Below the pieces are notes generated by a model. That model made no database searches. It was not told where the DNA came from and saw only the letters and a program-made list of their open reading frames with translations. A program made the position numbers and the translations under genes. Below are positions 37,241 through 45,011 of a stretch of DNA of 64,000 nt, in pieces. Location: NCBI GenBank assembly GCA_017475745.1, contig JAFVEZ010000031.1, forward strand, positions 1 through 64,000, written 5' to 3'. How positions within the stretch are numbered: position 1 is the stretch's first letter; every line of letters starts with the position of its first letter. Origin of the DNA: Selenomonadaceae bacterium (GTDB lineage Bacteria; Bacillota; Negativicutes; Selenomonadales; Selenomonadaceae).

Positions 37241-38845
37241 TCAATTCTCAAACGGCACAGCATTTAATATCAACTTTGGATTATTCTCTCTGATCCAGCC
37301 AAGTGACCACTCATTCTCAACAATCAAGACAGGTTGTCCATTGCGATCCGTGACAAACATTCCGCGGTCAGCACCTCTCAACGAAGCAGGTGTAACGGGC
37401 TTACCGTCCTCAAACCTCAACCACCGCGCAACCTCAAAAGGTTGCATTGTCAGAAGTACATCAACGCTGTATTCAGACTTCAGACGATATTGCAGAACTT
37501 CAAACTGCAAAGTGCCAACGGTTCCGACTATGTAGGATTCTGTACCGGCGCCGACTTGATTGAACAGTTGAATTGCTCCTTCTTGGGTCAACTGCTCAAT
37601 ACCTTTGGTGAACTGCTTGCGCTTCATTGTGTCCTTGGCTTGAACTCTTGCAAACTTTTCTGGTGGAAAGGTTGGGAAGTCTTCAAATCTGAACTTATGC
37701 GCCGAATCGGCAAGAGTATCGCCTATACCAAATATACCTGGATCAAATAGCCCAACTATATCGCCCGGATATGCCTCATCAATGATCTGTCTGTCTTGTG
37801 CGAGAAACTGTTGTGGTTGTGAAAGTTTGATCGACTTATCTTCTTGAGCGTGCCAGACATTCATATTGCGCTCGAACTTACCGGAGCAAATTCTTATAAA
37901 CGCTAATCTGTCGCGGTGTGCAGGGTTCATATTCGCCTGTATCTTGAAGACGAAGGCCGATAACTTTTCATCATCAGGTTCAATGATACCGTCTGAAGAC
38001 ATTCTTGGCGCCGGCGGTGGAGCAAGTTTAAGATACTCTTCCAAGAAGTTTTGAACGCCAAAGTTAGTCATTGCAGAGCCGAAGAAGGTCGGCGTTAGAT
38101 CTCCGGCGTCGACTTTTGCTTTGTCGAAGTCTTCACCTGCTTCATTGAGGAGCATTAAATCATCTTGAAGAGCATCATAGGTCTCTTGCCCAATCTTACC
38201 AATCATCTCAGGCGAATCTGCGGCAAATATTTCAGAGTTCCTCTCAAGTTGTCCGTGTGAGGTATCTTCAGCAAAAAGCTCAACTTGATTCTTCTGCCTG
38301 TCAAATACACCCAGATATTTGCCATCAATACCTATAGGAAAATTCATAGGATAAGTGGGAATACCTAACACCTTCTCAATCTCGTCCATCAAGTCCAGCG
38401 GTGCCTTGCCGTAGCGGTCTAGCTTGTTGACGAATGTGAAGATAGGTATACGACGCTCACGGCAGACCTTGAAGAGCTTCTTGGTCTGAGCTTCAACGCC
38501 CTTAGCTGCATCAATAATCATCACAGCACTGTCAACTGCCATCAATGTGCGGTAAGTGTCTTCACTAAAGTCCTGGTGACCTGGCGTGTCGAGGATATTT
38601 ATCTTAAAACCGTTGTAGTCAAATTGTAAAACCGAGCTGGTAACGGAAATACCACGCTGCTTCTCTATCTCCATCCAGTCAGATACGGCGTGGCGCTGAG
38701 TTTTGCGTGATTTGATTGAGCCTGCAAGGTGGATTGCTCCACCGTAGAGAAGTAACTTCTCAGTGAGAGTGGTCTTGCCGGCATCAGGGTGAGATATTAT
38801 TGCAAAAGTTCGACGTTTGTTTATTTCTTCCAAAAGTGTTGACAA
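37241..38845 (-). CDS. prfC: Peptide chain release factor 3
   Basis: GTPase that recycles RF1 and RF2 after termination, 534 residues. Signature elements: ISHPDAGKTTLTEKLL (G1), QRGISVTSSVLQF (G2), NILDTPGHQDFSEDTYR (G3), TFVNKLDR (G4). TTVIGEQ-like domains are absent, and the C-terminus has YRLKSEYSVDVLL, typical of RF3. The start is TTG 38845 with GGAG upstream at a longish distance. Confidence 0.95.
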   Translation of the reverse strand: MSTLLEEINKRRTFAIISHPDAGKTTLTEKLLLYGGAIHLAGSIKSRKTQRHAVSDWMEIEKQRGISVTSSVLQFDYNGFKINILDTPGHQDFSEDTYRTLMAVDSAVMIIDAAKGVEAQTKKLFKVCRERRIPIFTFVNKLDRYGKAPLDLMDEIEKVLGIPTYPMNFPIGIDGKYLGVFDRQKNQVELFAEDTSHGQLERNSEIFAADSPEMIGKIGQETYDALQDDLMLLNEAGEDFDKAKVDAGDLTPTFFGSAMTNFGVQNFLEEYLKLAPPPAPRMSSDGIIEPDDEKLSAFVFKIQANMNPAHRDRLAFIRICSGKFERNMNVWHAQEDKSIKLSQPQQFLAQDRQIIDEAYPGDIVGLFDPGIFGIGDTLADSAHKFRFEDFPTFPPEKFARVQAKDTMKRKQFTKGIEQLTQEGAIQLFNQVGAGTESYIVGTVGTLQFEVLQYRLKSEYSVDVLLTMQPFEVARWLRFEDGKPVTPASLRGADRGMFVTDRNGQPVLIVENEWSLGWIRENNPKLILNAVPFEN

Positions 38846-38874: not shown

Positions 38875-38903
38875 TTGACGTAATTAATTTGTTATGCTAC
38901 AAT
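38875..38903 (+). promoter_or_regulatory. Promoter of antitoxin-like RNA 1
   Basis: TTGACG (38875-38880), exactly 17 bases, TACAAT (38898-38903). Confidence 0.75.
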
Positions 38904-38908
38904 GAAGC

Positions 38909-38989
38909 CAAAGGTAGTTGATGTTGGTTCGTCGACTTCCTCCAGAATAATGTATCTTTTAAGAAAGTCGCCTTACGGCTTTATTTTTT
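38909..38989 (+). ncRNA. Antisense antitoxin-like RNA 1
   Basis: About 80 nt. It begins CCAAAGGTAG, then a 7-bp hairpin GTTGATG-6nt-CGTCGAC, then CTTCCTCC, which can pair with the GGAGG ribosome site of either toxin mRNA. It ends at the hairpin AAAGTCGCC-TTAC-GGCTTT with T-run (38964-38988). That hairpin also reads as a terminator for the converging toxin mRNA. Ends are inferred from the promoter and hairpin. Confidence 0.65.
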
Positions 38990-38990
38990 G

Positions 38991-39068
38991 CTACTGAAGC
39001 AGCATTATGATGTTGATGATGGTATTGATGATCGTTGCAGTTGCAATAATCTTTTCAAAAGTAGTCAT
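38991..39068 (-). CDS. Type I toxin-like hydrophobic peptide 1 (25 residues)
   Basis: Very short ORF: charged start MTTFEK followed by a hydrophobic stretch of Ile/Ala/Thr/Asn/Leu (one membrane helix) ending in LLQ. The GGAGG site lies eight bases before ATG 39068 (the ATG six bases upstream is too close). That site is buried in the stem CCTCC-GCGA-GGAGG (39077-39090). Architecture and size match membrane toxins of Fst/TxpA/holin-like type I systems. No sequence family is asserted. Confidence 0.68.
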   Translation of the reverse strand: MTTFEKIIATATIINTIINIIMLLQ

Positions 39069-39123
39069 CACCATCACCTCCTCGCGGAGGAAGCCGACCA
39101 TCATCTTACCTTTGGCAGAGTCG

Positions 39124-39152
39124 ATTATAGCACAAAAAAAATAGGCTGTCCA
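39124..39152 (-). promoter_or_regulatory. Promoter of toxin mRNA 1
   Basis: Minus strand TGGACA (39147-39152), exactly 17 bases, TATAAT (39124-39129). The mRNA leader is about 50 nt and starts CCAAAGGTAAGATG. Confidence 0.75.
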
Positions 39153-39171
39153 GAAATTTTACACTTCAAGA

Positions 39172-39200
39172 TTGACTCAAAAATTTTTATATGTTAAAAT
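39172..39200 (+). promoter_or_regulatory. Promoter of antitoxin-like RNA 2
   Basis: TTGACT (39172-39177), exactly 17 bases, TAAAAT (39195-39200). Confidence 0.75.
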
Positions 39201-39204
39201 TAAA

Positions 39205-39287
39205 CCAAAGGTAGTCGATGTCGTTCGTCGGCTTCCTCAAATCAGTTATAATTTTGGTTGTCGCCGTTGACGTAAACGGCTTTTTAT
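39205..39287 (+). ncRNA. Antisense antitoxin-like RNA 2
   Basis: Paralogue of RNA 1. It starts CCAAAGGTAG, followed by hairpin GTCGATG-5nt-CGTCGGC, with two base changes relative to RNA 1 that keep pairing, then CTTCCTC. It ends at GCCGTT-6nt-AACGGC (39263-39280) and a T-run. Confidence 0.65.
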
Positions 39288-39294
39288 TTTACGC

Positions 39295-39375
39295 TTAATC
39301 CTTAAAGAATGCCACGTAGATAGCAATCGCAGTCTGAGTGAGTCCGATAAGGATCATAATCTCATCATTACTCAT
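39295..39375 (-). CDS. Type I toxin-like hydrophobic peptide 2 (26 residues)
   Basis: Begins MSNDEIM, then a single predicted membrane helix rich in Ile/Leu/Ala (ILIGLTQTAIAIYVAFF) and ends KD. GGAGG is seven bases before ATG 39375 and is sequestered by CCTCC-GCGA-GGAGG (39383-39396), as in locus 1. The pattern of an acidic start plus a helix of about 20 residues resembles holin-like toxins of Firmicutes. Confidence 0.72.
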   Translation of the reverse strand: MSNDEIMILIGLTQTAIAIYVAFFKD

Positions 39376-39429
39376 GCTATCACCTCCTCGCGGAGGAAGC
39401 CGACCATCGTCTTACCTTTGGCGGAACCA

Positions 39430-39458
39430 ATTATAACAAAAAGAATACATTCTGTCCA
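39430..39458 (-). promoter_or_regulatory. Promoter of toxin mRNA 2
   Basis: Minus strand TGGACA (39453-39458), exactly 17 bases, TATAAT (39430-39435). Confidence 0.75.
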
Positions 39459-39551
39459 GAATTTTAAATCTCTGTCGACTTGCATATAGAAAGAAAGATA
39501 AAAATTTTTCCAGGGTAATATTGCCAGGCTACCTTGGATATTTTTTTGTTG

Positions 39552-39917
39552 TTATAATGTACTTGCTTGATCAGATTTGCTTGATTTGCGCTCTCGCTCA
39601 TAAACGGCATCGAGTGTAATGTTTACAATATCCTTGCCGGTATCACTCAATCCAAGATACTTTTGTACCTGTGATTGAATCTGTGAATCAACGTTAGTGA
39701 CATTATTCTCAAATTCAGTCTCATCTTTGCCAAGGATATAATCCGTCGTAACACCAAACAAATTAGACAATTCTTCAAGTCGTCTGACGGGCTTACTGGA
39801 GCCGTTCTCATATTGATTATATGCAGAGCGAGTAATTCCAAGATACTCTGCAACTTTCTTCTGAGATAATCCTTTTGCCTTTCGCAATCTCCGCAAACGA
39901 TAAGCGGTAATGTCCAT
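39552..39917 (-). CDS. XRE-family transcriptional regulator
   Basis: 121 residues. N-terminal helix-turn-helix: RLRRLRKAKGLSQKKVAEYL, then GITRSAYNQYENG, SSKPVRRLEELSNLFGVTTDYILG. The C-terminal part is charged and unassigned (possible oligomerisation). It is divergently transcribed from the small-peptide cassette. A 12-bp inverted repeat overlaps its own -10 element and the cassette's -35 element, so autoregulation and control of the cassette are likely. Confidence 0.88.
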   Translation of the reverse strand: MDITAYRLRRLRKAKGLSQKKVAEYLGITRSAYNQYENGSSKPVRRLEELSNLFGVTTDYILGKDETEFENNVTNVDSQIQSQVQKYLGLSDTGKDIVNITLDAVYERERKSSKSDQASTL

Positions 39918-39928
39918 TAAAATCTCTC

Positions 39929-40020
39929 CTTATCAACATTATAATTGAAGATAAATCATTAGGTTATATGTAAATTTAACTTACTTAAATGTTGATAAGT
40001 TAATTTAATTCACATACAAT
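39929..40020. promoter_or_regulatory. Divergent promoter region with paired operators
   Basis: CTTATCAACATT (39929-39940) and its exact inverted copy AATGTTGATAAG (39988-39999). The left copy overlaps the regulator's TATAAT (minus, 39938-39943). The right copy contains the cassette's -35 TTGATA (39992-39997), with 17 bases to TACAAT (40015-40020). This is the expected design for a repressor controlling both directions. Confidence 0.7.
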
Positions 40021-40038
40021 AAAATGGTGGTGATAGAG

Positions 40039-40257
40039 ATGTCGGGACTCATTGGCGGTATATTTGGCGGCATATTTAAGGCAATATTTGGTAAGATAAT
40101 ATTTAATCTTATCATATCGCTTCCGTTGGCTATACTTAGTGGAATTGGCAAGCTCATGATCACCATATTGAAAGAATTTGCTCAGACGATTCTTGAGATC
40201 ATTATCACTATTCCTATTAGCATCATTCATAAGATTTTTAAATTTATATTTGGTTAG
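40039..40257 (+). CDS. Hydrophobic amphipathic peptide (72 residues)
   Basis: Not recognised. Almost entirely Ile, Leu, Phe, Gly and Ala with lysines spaced along it (IFGGIFKAIFGKIIFNL, HKIFKFIFG at the end). It has no signal-peptide cleavage pattern and could form one to three membrane or amphipathic helices. ATG 40039 has GGTGGTGAT upstream; the leader is only about 12 nt. Possible roles are a holin-like or pore peptide or a leaderless bacteriocin; these are inferences from composition only. Confidence 0.65.
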   Translation: MSGLIGGIFGGIFKAIFGKIIFNLIISLPLAILSGIGKLMITILKEFAQTILEIIITIPISIIHKIFKFIFG

Positions 40258-40323
40258 TGCTTAGGTGGTGGTGCTTGCAGATATGATAACTTTAAAAATT
40301 CAGCATGATGGGAGGTGACTGTA

Positions 40324-40542
40324 ATGGTCATTGATGCTATTGTTGCCGGAGTGGCAAAAGATGCAATCAAAGGTATAGTTGAAATGAATGATACCTACAA
40401 TAAGCGGAAGCAGAATGAGAACTTGGCGGACAATGTTGTTAAGGGTGCTGCTGCTTTGTTGGCTGCTGGTGTGGCTGCATATGGTATCAACAAGTTTGCA
40501 CCAAATAACAACGATACAAAATCTCCAAAACCTATCAAGTAA
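40324..40542 (+). CDS. Small hypothetical protein (72 residues)
   Basis: Not recognised. Ala/Val/Ile-rich N-terminal helix, charged middle (NDTYNKRKQNENLAD), then a short hydrophobic helix (GAAALLAAGVAAYGI) and a polar tail. GGGAGGTGA precedes ATG 40324. Second gene of the XRE-linked cassette. Confidence 0.65.
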   Translation: MVIDAIVAGVAKDAIKGIVEMNDTYNKRKQNENLADNVVKGAAALLAAGVAAYGINKFAPNNNDTKSPKPIK

Positions 40543-40636
40543 TGTAGAGTTGACAAAGTGCTGAGAGGTGAGGATATTCAACAAATTATTGAATTGTTCC
40601 TCACCTTGAATGGCACTTAATGAGGAAGTGGCTCTT

Positions 40637-41320
40637 ATGGATTATGATTTTTCTTCTTGGTCTTCGGTTCTGAATCAGTTCCGTGAGAATTATGAACTAT
40701 ATAAAGACTTCAAACATGTCAGAAAAATTTTTATAGCCCGTTTACGAAATGACAAAGTGAAATTCATTCATACTATCCATTACAAAGATGGTGATAAGCT
40801 CTTTGAGAGTACTCAGTCTCTTGAAATAGAAAAAACTATTGTACCTAAACAAATATTGGAAACTCTCAATCATGAGGAAAAAGCAGATATAACCGAGATG
40901 GTTGAGAAAATGATGGAAAGTGCATCCGACGATTTCGATACATCTAAATTTGATGATGTCGATATGGGTAAATATGCTAAAAACTATTCTGAAGGCGATC
41001 TTTGGAAAAAAATAAAAGGCAATGTCAAAAAAGCCGGTTTGGGCTTAATTTACAATGCCTTGCAACTTTACTATGTAACTGAAAATCCGAACTGTCCAAT
41101 GAAGGTGAAAGCCGGTATATTTGCCGCTCTGGGTTACTTCATTTCGCCGATTGATCTGATTCCTGATTTTACACCAATAGTTGGATATTCAGACGATGGC
41201 GGAGCTATCTTGTTGGCAATCGGTATGGCACAAATGTACATTGATGATACCGTCAAAGGAAAAGCAAAAGAAAAAATCCGCAACTTGTTTGGTAAAGATG
41301 TTGTTGCAGAACTCAATTAG
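40637..41320 (+). CDS. DUF1232 (YkvA-like) protein
   Basis: 227 residues. The C-terminal third carries the DUF1232 signature YFISPIDLIPDFTPIVGYSDD followed by a hydrophobic helix. The N-terminal 120 residues are charged and unassigned (FARLR..KVKFIHTI-like). DUF1232 proteins are small membrane-associated proteins of unknown function. ATG 40637 is chosen for GAGGAAG upstream; earlier in-frame starts precede that site. It lies in the cassette next to the CFI-box gene, which starts 14 bases later. Confidence 0.8.
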   Translation: MDYDFSSWSSVLNQFRENYELYKDFKHVRKIFIARLRNDKVKFIHTIHYKDGDKLFESTQSLEIEKTIVPKQILETLNHEEKADITEMVEKMMESASDDFDTSKFDDVDMGKYAKNYSEGDLWKKIKGNVKKAGLGLIYNALQLYYVTENPNCPMKVKAGIFAALGYFISPIDLIPDFTPIVGYSDDGGAILLAIGMAQMYIDDTVKGKAKEKIRNLFGKDVVAELN

Positions 41321-41334
41321 AAAGGGTGATATAA

Positions 41335-42228
41335 TTGCCAGATGTGAGCGAATTAAAAGATGCAGCGGCTAATGGCGATATGGATGCCATTGAAGAGTTA
41401 TCAGCGCTGTATTTCAATCAGATGGACTATCAAAATGCGTCTTACTGGGCGCGTGAAGGTGCTGCTGTGCATAATGCCTGGTGTTTGCATTTGCTTGGCA
41501 CGATTGCTCGCGATCAAAGAAATTTCCGCGAGGCTGAACAGTGGTACAGTCGCAATATCAACATCAATGGTGACAGCCTGTCTGCTTCCAATCTAGGTTT
41601 CATTTACTTAAATCCTAATGATGAACTTGATATGCCCAAAGACCTTGACAGAACGGAATATTACTTTCAACTGTCCATGAAGAAGGATAACCAAAATCCA
41701 GAAGCGGCTTTTGGCTTGGCAATTTGTATTTTGAATCACGACAATGTTGATATGAACCAAGTTAAATCATTGCTTCAAATTACCTACAGAAACGGTACCG
41801 GTGAGGTGAAAGATGCCGCGCAAGATCTTTTGAGAGATATTCAAAATAATGAACGATCTGGCAATAACAACAATAATAATAACAACGGTAATAATAGTAG
41901 TGGCGGTGGCTGTTTTATTACGACAGCAGTCTGTGATAGTCTTGGCAAAGCTGATGACTGCTATGAGCTGACGATGTTTAGAAACTTCCGCGACAACTGG
42001 CTCATCAATCAATCTGATGGCAAATCTCTGATTGACGAGTATTATTCAACTGCTCCTGCAATCGTCGACAAAATCAACAAAATCACCGATTCACCACAAA
42101 TTTACAAGACTATTTGGAACGAATACCTCAAACCCTGCCTTGCAAACATTGAGCGTGGCGACTTCTCGGAGTGCAAAAGGATCTACATTTCAATGGTCAA
42201 CAATCTGAGGAATACTTATTTAAAGTAG
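41335..42228 (+). CDS. Sel1/TPR-like repeat protein with CFI-box C-terminal domain
   Basis: 297 residues from a TTG start with AAGGGTGAT upstream. Residues 1-170 are helical repeats (AANGDMDAIEELSALYF, YQNASYWAREGAAVHNAWC, FREAEQWYSRNI) of Sel1/TPR type. A low-complexity Asn stretch (177-188) leads to GGGCFITTAVCDSL (189-202), the CFI-box motif, followed by an alpha-helical domain with YELTMFRNFRDNWL. CFI-box domains cap many otherwise unrelated bacterial proteins and have no assigned function. Confidence 0.8.
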   Translation: MPDVSELKDAAANGDMDAIEELSALYFNQMDYQNASYWAREGAAVHNAWCLHLLGTIARDQRNFREAEQWYSRNININGDSLSASNLGFIYLNPNDELDMPKDLDRTEYYFQLSMKKDNQNPEAAFGLAICILNHDNVDMNQVKSLLQITYRNGTGEVKDAAQDLLRDIQNNERSGNNNNNNNNGNNSSGGGCFITTAVCDSLGKADDCYELTMFRNFRDNWLINQSDGKSLIDEYYSTAPAIVDKINKITDSPQIYKTIWNEYLKPCLANIERGDFSECKRIYISMVNNLRNTYLK

Positions 42229-42280
42229 TTTGGAAAGGTAACTTCAAAAAGTACAATATTTAACGTTTGGAGGTAATGAC

Positions 42281-42529
42281 ATGGGTTTACTAAGAACTTT
42301 AGGAAGAGCCTTTATCGAGGTAACAAATGTAGTCGGACCTGTCGCTGAGGAAGGTGTGAAAGCACTTTGGAGGGCTGGAAAGAAAGGTCTCAATGAGGCA
42401 CAGGATGCCCGTATGAACTCAAGAGGCTTGAGTGACGCAGAATTGCTCAACGGAGTTCAAAATCCAAATAACTCTTGGGCGCAGAGAGCCGGAATGGCAC
42501 AAGCCTTCAAAGACAGGCATAGGAAGTAA
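42281..42529 (+). CDS. Small hypothetical protein (82 residues)
   Basis: Not recognised. Hydrophilic, basic, helical, with MNSRGLSDAELLNGVQNPNNS in the second half, a segment that resembles a short recruitment motif. GGAGG is eight bases before the ATG. It continues the cassette 52 bases after the CFI-box gene. Confidence 0.65.
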   Translation: MGLLRTLGRAFIEVTNVVGPVAEEGVKALWRAGKKGLNEAQDARMNSRGLSDAELLNGVQNPNNSWAQRAGMAQAFKDRHRK

Positions 42530-42561
42530 AATTACTCCTATATGTCAAACAGGTGAGGATA

Positions 42562-42649
42562 ATGATTAAGGCATTGATAGAAGATTTGCAGGAATCCTTA
42601 GTAAATTGCTTGAAGTTGTCCTTGCCTTGATTTATTATAAAGCCATTTA
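42562..42649 (+). pseudogene. Frameshifted small hydrophobic peptide
   Basis: GGTGAGG precedes ATG 42562, which opens a 22-codon frame (MIKALIEDLQES...) ending at TGA 42628-42630. One extra base in the TTT run near 42585 would instead give a 29-residue peptide ending AGILSKLLEVVLALIYYKAI at a TAA near 42647-42649. That version is amphipathic and resembles the other cassette peptides. It may be a real one-base deletion or a sequencing error. Confidence 0.4.
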
Positions 42650-42718
42650 AAGATTCATATTACTTGTAATATTGCTGCTGCTGCGGTATATTAGAAGAGA
42701 CTACACAGTTGTCTGATA

Positions 42719-42769
42719 TTGATTAGAACTTGTTTTGAGATTATAATTATAATTATAATTGTAATTAAG
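42719..42769 (+). promoter_or_regulatory. Promoter with reiterated TATAAT hexamers
   Basis: TTGATT (42719-42724), 17 bases, TATAAT (42742-42747), then further in-phase copies 6 bp apart (ATAATT repeats) before the HTH gene. Slippage here would change promoter spacing. Confidence 0.5.
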
Positions 42770-42791
42770 ATAAAATCGCGGAGGGTTGGTA

Positions 42792-43430
42792 ATGCCTGTA
42801 ATTTTAACGAAGAATTTGCAGAAGAAGCTCGATAGAATGAAACTCTTCAACGCGGTCGAAAAATATATCAGTGACTATTACAAGCCTACTCCGTTTAGGG
42901 TTCTTAAAAAGGTAATAATCCGCTGTTTTACATCGCCACCTGACAAAATGATTCCCAATATTTCTGCTAGGTCAAATATGGGTATGTTTAGCATAATTGC
43001 TGATCTTGTCCTTAGGCGTCCCACAGGGCAGACTTTCTCGGAAAAATTGATGACTCTGATTAAACACAAGGGCAGAAAACCGCAAGAGATATATTACAAG
43101 GCTGCCATTACCAAGCAGCATTTCTCAAAAATCAAGAATAACATTGACTATCAACCAGCCAAGGGAACAGCGATAGCTCTTGCCATAGCACTTCATTTGA
43201 ATCTTGAAGAGACTAATGATTTGCTTCGTCGTGCCGGATATATTCTTTCACACAGCATAAAATCCGATTTGATAGTAGAGTATTTTATAAATGAAAAATT
43301 TTATGATGTTGATGAAATTAATATTCAACTTCACAGTCATGGTTTTCAGCCTTTGACTAATAATCGAGAAGTCAAAGAGGAAGTCTCAAAAAAGAAAAAA
43401 ATAATCAATAAGTTCAACTACGATAATTAA
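42792..43430 (+). CDS. Helix-turn-helix protein of unknown function
   Basis: 212 residues. The core TFSEKLMTLIKHKG, then AAITKQHFSKIKNN, GTAIALAIALHLNLEETNDLLRRAGYILS and IVEYFINEKFYDVDEIN is an XRE-like helix-turn-helix module common in Clostridia, often found as a C-terminal module on macro-domain or TerD-like proteins. The first 85 residues are basic and unassigned. ATG 42792 follows GGAGGG; a TTG six bases earlier is less likely. It has its own promoter and a terminator hairpin behind it. Confidence 0.7.
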   Translation: MPVILTKNLQKKLDRMKLFNAVEKYISDYYKPTPFRVLKKVIIRCFTSPPDKMIPNISARSNMGMFSIIADLVLRRPTGQTFSEKLMTLIKHKGRKPQEIYYKAAITKQHFSKIKNNIDYQPAKGTAIALAIALHLNLEETNDLLRRAGYILSHSIKSDLIVEYFINEKFYDVDEINIQLHSHGFQPLTNNREVKEEVSKKKKIINKFNYDN

Positions 43431-43461
43431 TGATTAAATAGGACTGATTAAATCAAAAATA

Positions 43462-43491
43462 GCCGCCTAAGTCTCGTCATCTTAGGCGACT
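43462..43491 (+). terminator. Terminator after the HTH gene
   Basis: Stem GCCTAAG-9nt-CTTAGGC extended by flanking pairs, then a TTTTT run at 43500. Confidence 0.65.
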
Positions 43492-43544
43492 ATCAACAAT
43501 TTTTCTAACTCGTCAAAATATGGTCGTTGCTAGTCAATGCTTAA

Positions 43545-43575
43545 CGCTCTGCACCACGCAGGGCGATTTCTTTTG
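43545..43575 (+). terminator. Second hairpin with T-run
   Basis: CGCTCTGC-ACCAC-GCAGGGCG followed by ATTTCTTTTG; a plus-strand terminator. Confidence 0.55.
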
Positions 43576-43603: not shown

Positions 43604-44905
43604 TCAACCAAAATAGACAACATCAAATGAAAGAGGGATTGTATTCAACAGCATTTTAAAGAAAGATTTCTGCTCAACGTCGGTAGTAGCAACAATTTTA
43701 GATTCTGCAACCTCTTTTCCATCACATAGAACATGAACTTTGCCCACAGTATCACCTTTCTTAATCGGTGCCTTCAAGAAGGTCGGAACATCATAATCAA
43801 TCTCATAGGCTTCAGCATCGTCCTTGAAAACAGGCATTACAACTTCATTTGTCGTCTTTACAGGCATGGCGTGTTTGCGACCTGAGAGAATAGGCAGCGT
43901 ATCAATAGTCTCATTGGATTTAACGAGGGTTGAAGTCTCCACTTGAGAGAATCCGTAATCCAGCAAGGCGATTGAATCATTCCACATGTAGACACTATCG
44001 AGGACGACTGCAATTAATTGTACGCCATTTCGATTTGAAGCTGAAACCAAGCAGCGACCGGCAGCGTCAGTATAGCCGGTCTTGACGCCGTTGCCACCTT
44101 GATAGAGCCACAACATTTGGTTCTCATTCCTCAGCAGATGTGATGGATCATGAACCCAAGGGAATGTCTGTTCTTTAGTGCTAACGATCTTTTCAAAGTT
44201 AGGCAGAGAGTAACCATGTGCCGCAAGGATAGCTAAATCGTAAGCCGTGGTATAATGATTAGCGTCCGGCAAGCCATTGGCATTTGTAAAGTTAGTTCCT
44301 TTAGCGCCAAGTTCTTTGGCACGCTGTGTCATATGAGCAGCAAACTTCGGAACGCTGCCATCAACATGTTCAGCAATGGCGATTGCGGCATCATTGCCGG
44401 ATACCATCATCATGCCACTCAACAAATCACCAAGAGGTACTTTATCTCCAACTTCCAGCCAAAGGGTTGAACCTTCAGCACCAGAAGCATTTTTACTGAC
44501 CGTTACAACTTCGTCGAGGTTACCATATTCCAGCGCAGTTATTAACGTCATCATCTTTGTGGTTGAAGCTGGAAACATCTTTCGATGAGCATCACGTTGA
44601 TATATAATGTGTCCTGTTTTCGCTTCAATCACCACCGCGGAAGTTGCGGTCATATTCGGCAGCTTGTCAGTCGGTGACACCGGTTTGGTGTTTTGTATCG
44701 GTGTTATGCTATAACCCGGATTTAATCCTGACGCCGTGTTAGGTATATTCGTTGAAGGTTCAGCAATTTGCCCATTGAGTTCTGTCGAACTTTGTATCAT
44801 CTGTGACTCTGTGATTGGCTCTGCTGTTGTAGGTGAATACAGCAGCATTGTGGAAGTTACTGCCACTGTCAAAATTGACATCAAGATTTTTCTTTTTGAC
44901 CTCAT
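43604..44905 (-). CDS. D-alanyl-D-alanine carboxypeptidase (DacF/PBP5 type)
   Basis: 433 residues. N-terminal signal peptide, a Ser/Thr/Pro-rich stretch, then peptidase family S11: PASTTKMM (SxxK nucleophile), VSGNDAAI (SxN), NGVKTGYTDAAG (KTG). A C-terminal beta domain ends the protein. It trims the terminal D-Ala of peptidoglycan pentapeptides in the periplasm. ATG 44905 is preferred for its distance to GAGGTGA. Confidence 0.93.
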   Translation of the reverse strand: MRSKRKILMSILTVAVTSTMLLYSPTTAEPITESQMIQSSTELNGQIAEPSTNIPNTASGLNPGYSITPIQNTKPVSPTDKLPNMTATSAVVIEAKTGHIIYQRDAHRKMFPASTTKMMTLITALEYGNLDEVVTVSKNASGAEGSTLWLEVGDKVPLGDLLSGMMMVSGNDAAIAIAEHVDGSVPKFAAHMTQRAKELGAKGTNFTNANGLPDANHYTTAYDLAILAAHGYSLPNFEKIVSTKEQTFPWVHDPSHLLRNENQMLWLYQGGNGVKTGYTDAAGRCLVSASNRNGVQLIAVVLDSVYMWNDSIALLDYGFSQVETSTLVKSNETIDTLPILSGRKHAMPVKTTNEVVMPVFKDDAEAYEIDYDVPTFLKAPIKKGDTVGKVHVLCDGKEVAESKIVATTDVEQKSFFKMLLNTIPLSFDVVYFG

Positions 44906-45011
44906 ATCTTTCACCTCGTTTTCATATTACTTCTACATATTCTCTTCTATAAATTAGAGATTATTCCTCTATTATTCTGAAAAATTTCTGATAAAATTTG
45001 TAAAAAAATAA

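Follow-up and report, generated by a model that had tools for sequence, protein, structure and literature searches.

A likely XRE-repressed cassette encoding small peptides, a DUF1232 fusion protein and a TPR/CFI-box protein in a Selenomonadaceae bacterium

The window analysed here, the whole 64-kb stretch of DNA, carries between prfC (37241-38845, minus strand) and a D-alanyl-D-alanine carboxypeptidase-like gene (43604-44914, minus strand) a small XRE-family repressor gene and, divergent from it, a single run of genes in the order hyd-p2-DUF1232-CFI-p5, with an HTH-family gene further downstream (Table 1). The genes named in a preliminary description of this DNA are all present where it placed them, and the divergent orientation of XRE that it reported is seen in the ORF layout. 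The small peptides hyd, p2 and p5 gave no firm match in family-profile scans, and an Rfam scan of the 64-kb window returned no match. Against PADLOC-DB 2.0.0 (2023 library), XRE matched generic HTH models only and the DUF1232 protein gave one weak match (0.006); the lack of a system-specific match in a library of that date does not argue against a defence role. On the minus strand at 39295-39375 there is also a 26-codon ORF, MSNDEIMILIGLTQTAIAIYVAFFKD, encoding a small, hydrophobic, type-I-toxin-like peptide, which sits in a region of two-copy direct repeats (38875-39465; 85% and 76% identity).

Table 1. Genes and candidate regulatory features of the cassette, by position in the window
Feature	Position	Strand	Basis
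XRE-family repressor gene, 121 aa	39552..39917	-	HTH_3, 2e-17
Inverted repeat CTTATCAACATT, arm 1	39929..39940		exact match
Candidate operator GTAAATTTAACTTAC, GTGA-N7-TCAC type	39970..39984		matrix match 39967-39987, rank 4 of 64-kb window
Inverted repeat CTTATCAACATT, arm 2	39988..39999		exact match; overlaps cassette -35
Cassette promoter-like site TTGATA-N17-TACAAT	39992..40020	+	consensus scan, 10/12
Candidate operator GTTAATTTAATTCAC, inside cassette promoter spacer	39999..40013		matrix match 39996-40016, rank 2 of 64-kb window
hyd, 72-aa hydrophobic peptide	40039..40257	+	ORF
p2, 72-aa peptide	40324..40542	+	relatives adjoin DUF1232 or CFI genes
DUFn-DUF1232 fusion, 236 aa	40610..41320	+	PF06803, 1e-13; phrog_14750, 2.5e-35
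Predicted TPR superhelix with C-terminal CFI-box domain (193-296), 297 aa	41335..42228	+	NF041770, 3.4e-18
p5, 82-aa peptide	42281..42529	+	ORF; weak relatives in genomes G087, G083, G079
Promoter-like site TTGATT-N17-TATAAT ahead of HTH gene	42719..42747	+	10/12
HTH-family protein, 212 aa	42792..43430	+	phrog_4031, 1.5e-5

The HTH_3 domain of the regulator scores 63.3 bits against a gathering score of 23, and orthologs of the protein are found in 46 of 189 family genomes (E<=1e-15), mostly as a single copy per genome. It resembles phage repressors (phrog_8, 4e-23), and its 63 bits (3e-17) against the RstR phage repressor family (NF041951) fall under the curated cut-off of 80. Because XRE has no peptidase domain, self-cleavage of the LexA or CI kind is unlikely. 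It is possible that derepression proceeds via an antirepressor, or via phosphorylation by the Ser/Thr kinase whose gene is convergent with XRE in 13 of the 42 XRE-region loci read; no kinase gene is adjacent to XRE in the window cassette.

Promoter-like sites point in both directions from the intergenic region, and a -10 for XRE, TATAAT, can be read on the minus strand at 39943-39938. The preliminary description had placed an inverted repeat, CTTATCAACATT, on this -10 and on the cassette -35, and had taken it as the site of dedicated repression. The repeat is indeed perfect, and the whole window has just one other perfect 12-bp inverted pair whose arms lie <=100 apart. Its second arm lies on the cassette -35, but its first arm touches only the edge of the XRE -10. 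Of the XRE orthologs whose upstream regions were read, the nearest alone retains both arms, though imperfectly and with the same C-to-T change in each, and we rejected the repeat as the operator because its conservation stops there. An unbiased count of spaced dyads points to a different element: GTGA-N7-TCAC occurs in 16 of 37 non-redundant regions upstream of XRE orthologs, whereas in 60 shuffled sets any dyad reached at most 6 regions. About one third of the upstream regions in this count are without a site even at one mismatch. Both dyads in the window, found with a matrix of sites from other genomes (the window and its nearest XRE ortholog were left out of training), are variants, GTAA/TTAC and GTTA/TCAC, and not the exact consensus. 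The top matrix match in the window (58444) falls within an unrelated coding gene, so a lone match is no proof of an operator. It is the conserved dyad together with the matches at ranks 2 and 4 in the 120-bp promoter region that makes dedicated repression of the cassette by XRE likely, as judged from sequence, through an operator other than the repeat named earlier.

The HTH gene had been counted within the XRE-controlled cassette, but it probably forms a separate transcription unit, because it has its own promoter-like site, is separated from p5 by 262 bp, and belongs to a family whose genes are solitary in two relatives (L129 and L130); the promoter-like site and the solitary relatives led us to reject it as an operon member. 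Its product matches only phrog_4031 in the family scans and has a 78% ortholog in another genome (G080). A hairpin-like stretch, GCCGCCTAAG...CTTAGGCGAC, followed by a short T run, lies 3' of the gene at 43461-43500, and the terminator-like site called by our scan lies elsewhere, at 43545-43565.

Two of the cassette proteins belong to named families. The DUF1232 protein of the preliminary description does pass the Pfam cut-off (PF06803, 51.2 bits against a gathering score of 23), but it has to be redescribed as a fusion, in which an N-terminal domain, DUFn (about residues 13-105), precedes the DUF1232 region (110-236). DUFn is found as a separate gene in L070 and L071, as well as in the XRE-headed cassettes L188 and L179. 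Relatives of DUF1232 are present in 149 of the 189 family genomes (E<=0.001), and a plasmid collection held only distant matches. The predicted DUF1232 fold, made from an alignment of three sequences only, has a pLDDT of 46 and was set aside. A literature search on DUF1232 turned up only plant RING-protein papers. For the next protein, the CFI box reported earlier scores 65.2 bits against the curated NCBIfam cut-off of 40, over residues 193-264 of 297. The Sel1-type repeats also reported there fall below the cut-off in Pfam, yet fold prediction gives a clear TPR/Sel1 superhelix. In the AlphaFold model (mean pLDDT 93.6) the TPR superhelix would span residues 1-181, followed by a linker modelled at low confidence (182-190) and, from residue 194, a helical CFI domain, and matches in a PDB comparison span the TPR part only (model residues 2-179). 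Two cysteines, C193 and C200, are invariant across 61 sequences. CFI relatives occur in 29 family genomes (E<=1e-8), and our literature search found no paper on the CFI box. The same genome carries a second CFI-box gene on contig C1 (263 aa, L083); after it come genes for an HTH-type protein and a Ser/Thr kinase.

How far the cassette is conserved can be judged from its relatives, in which genes were called with a custom script and many loci stop at contig ends, so that counts are approximate. The exact gene set was found in no relative examined. The scattering of the genes without a shared order, which the preliminary description had named as its refutation, is borne out by half: the set of six is not conserved, but pairs and triples of its genes recur. 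DUF1232 is followed by CFI in four relatives (L065, L074, L075 and L076), three of which also have TerB-like and DUF4230 genes in the operon, Pfam-confirmed in L076. At six loci a relative of p2 is found close to DUF1232 or CFI (L003, L077, which is the same as L237, L236, L238, L239 and L240), and the HTH family lies <=5 kb from DUF1232 at 15 of 88 loci, compared with an expectation of 0.25. A search of the family genomes found no firm relative of hyd; L179 has a 37-aa peptide of the same kind at the equivalent place. Upstream of TerB-DUF1232-CFI-DUF4230, L065, L074 and L076 carry radical-SAM-like and PqqD-like genes with short peptides, which, read from sequence, look like a RiPP cluster.

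A survey of the divergent side of the 42 XRE-region loci shows how varied the cargo is. Among XRE-headed loci there is one with DUF1232 (L195), one with a zinc ribbon, p2L and CFI (L079), and one with CFI (L180). Others have dynamin-like GTPases (L183), an HTH-family gene (L192), an FtsZ-like gene (L204), hydrophobic peptides with AAA+ and DUFn (L179), or a zinc ribbon with AAA+ and DUFn (L188). At L131 the XRE ortholog begins a long region with two HTH-family genes, two FtsZ-like genes, and kinase, vWA, PP2C and DUF1232 genes.

The conserved dyad, the recurrent gene pairs and the varied cargo, all of them computed, lead us to favour, tentatively and with somewhat more doubt than conviction, a membrane stress or defence cassette that is headed by a repressor and swaps its cargo. 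We infer that the XRE protein would bind GTGA-N7-TCAC-like dyads, both within the divergent promoters and in the stretch that separates them, and that bound XRE would repress both its own gene and the hyd-p2-DUF1232-CFI-p5 run, which would be co-transcribed. A signal would remove the repressor, such that the two small hydrophobic peptides, the DUF1232 protein and the TPR/CFI scaffold are made together, and these products may act at the cell membrane in a stress or defence response. Relatives would retain the type of repressor and swap the cargo. A role at the membrane, in stress or in defence, is suggested by the company that these families keep, which recalls TerY-P triads, vWA and GTPase conflict systems and FtsZ-like loci; the membrane-acting role proposed in the preliminary description is, by this analogy, consistent with neighbours in relatives that include TerB, DUF4230, vWA, PP2C, Ser/Thr kinase, dynamin-like GTPase and AAA+ genes.

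Other readings of the same locus deserve consideration. XRE could be a conserved chromosomal regulator of the ordinary kind, acting on envelope genes, with the varying neighbours acquired independently at a permissive site and not forming one system. One ortholog per genome in most of the genomes that have it, and cargo that differs strongly among them, would fit such a regulator, but DUF1232, p2, CFI and DUFn co-occur far above chance in several genera, and the candidate operator dyads sit in the cassette promoter, so we regard this as rather unlikely. We think it improbable that the locus is a toxin-antitoxin-like unit, in which the hydrophobic peptide would be a membrane toxin, XRE its antitoxin or repressor, and the remaining genes passengers. 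Both in the window and at the nearest ortholog, the first gene that follows XRE does encode a short hydrophobic peptide. Most XRE orthologs, however, have a different gene in that position, and hyd is without a firm relative in other family genomes.

The region had also been described as an accessory island, and this is partly supported. In favour of it, no other genome examined has this exact combination of genes, and the neighbours of prfC and of the carboxypeptidase gene differ in the relatives checked, but this difference also means that no island ends could be drawn, and neither an integrase nor an empty site was found. It is very improbable that the locus is what remains of a prophage or integrative element, with the repressor and early genes surviving. 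The likeness of XRE to phage repressors would fit such a remnant, as would the transposase or excisionase-like genes adjoining some XRE-headed loci (L200, L218 and L188). However, the part of the window that was read showed neither phage structural genes nor an integrase, and no tRNA was found in the 64-kb window. Searches of IMG/VR found no relative for DUF1232 or HTH and only partial ones (<=48%) for XRE, and phage records gave only a distant DUF1232 match. For want of support, given the tRNA, IMG/VR and phage-record results, we rejected a prophage origin.

The cargo-swapping cassette would matter because DUF1232 and the CFI box, although they have family names, had no tested bacterial function in the literature searched. 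The shared candidate operator and the repeated grouping of both with p2 turn them into a single testable unit, which the XRE gene would switch. We also entertain, with considerable doubt, the broader idea of a class not described before: membrane defence or stress cassettes that are headed by a repressor of this XRE type, have the GTGA-N7-TCAC operator as a hallmark and exchange their cargo, and in which DUF1232, p2 and the CFI box would be one recurring effector module. If the cassette proves to serve defence or the response to envelope stress, the vWA, kinase and GTPase networks would gain a simpler version that lacks its own NTPase.

Compared with known families and systems, the DUF1232 protein of the window resembles YkvA/DUF1232 proteins in passing the PF06803 gathering score, but differs in carrying a fused N-terminal domain, which relatives encode as a gene of its own. 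Likewise, its neighbour passes the curated cut-off for CFI-box-CTERM proteins with the domain at the C terminus, and differs in that the CFI domain follows a predicted TPR superhelix. TerY-P triads consist of a TerY-like vWA protein, a PP2C phosphatase and a Ser/Thr kinase (PMC11090510), and relatives of DUF1232 and of the HTH family sit with all three kinds of gene in L131, whereas the window cassette has none of them and is not a triad. FtsZ-like loci have been proposed to function in membrane remodelling (PMC2875224). From the vWA and GTPase conflict systems (PMC7159879), in whose description DUF1232 and TerB are not named, the window cassette differs in having no NTPase; the likeness lies in the GTPases, zinc ribbons, transmembrane parts and swapped effectors seen around these same families.
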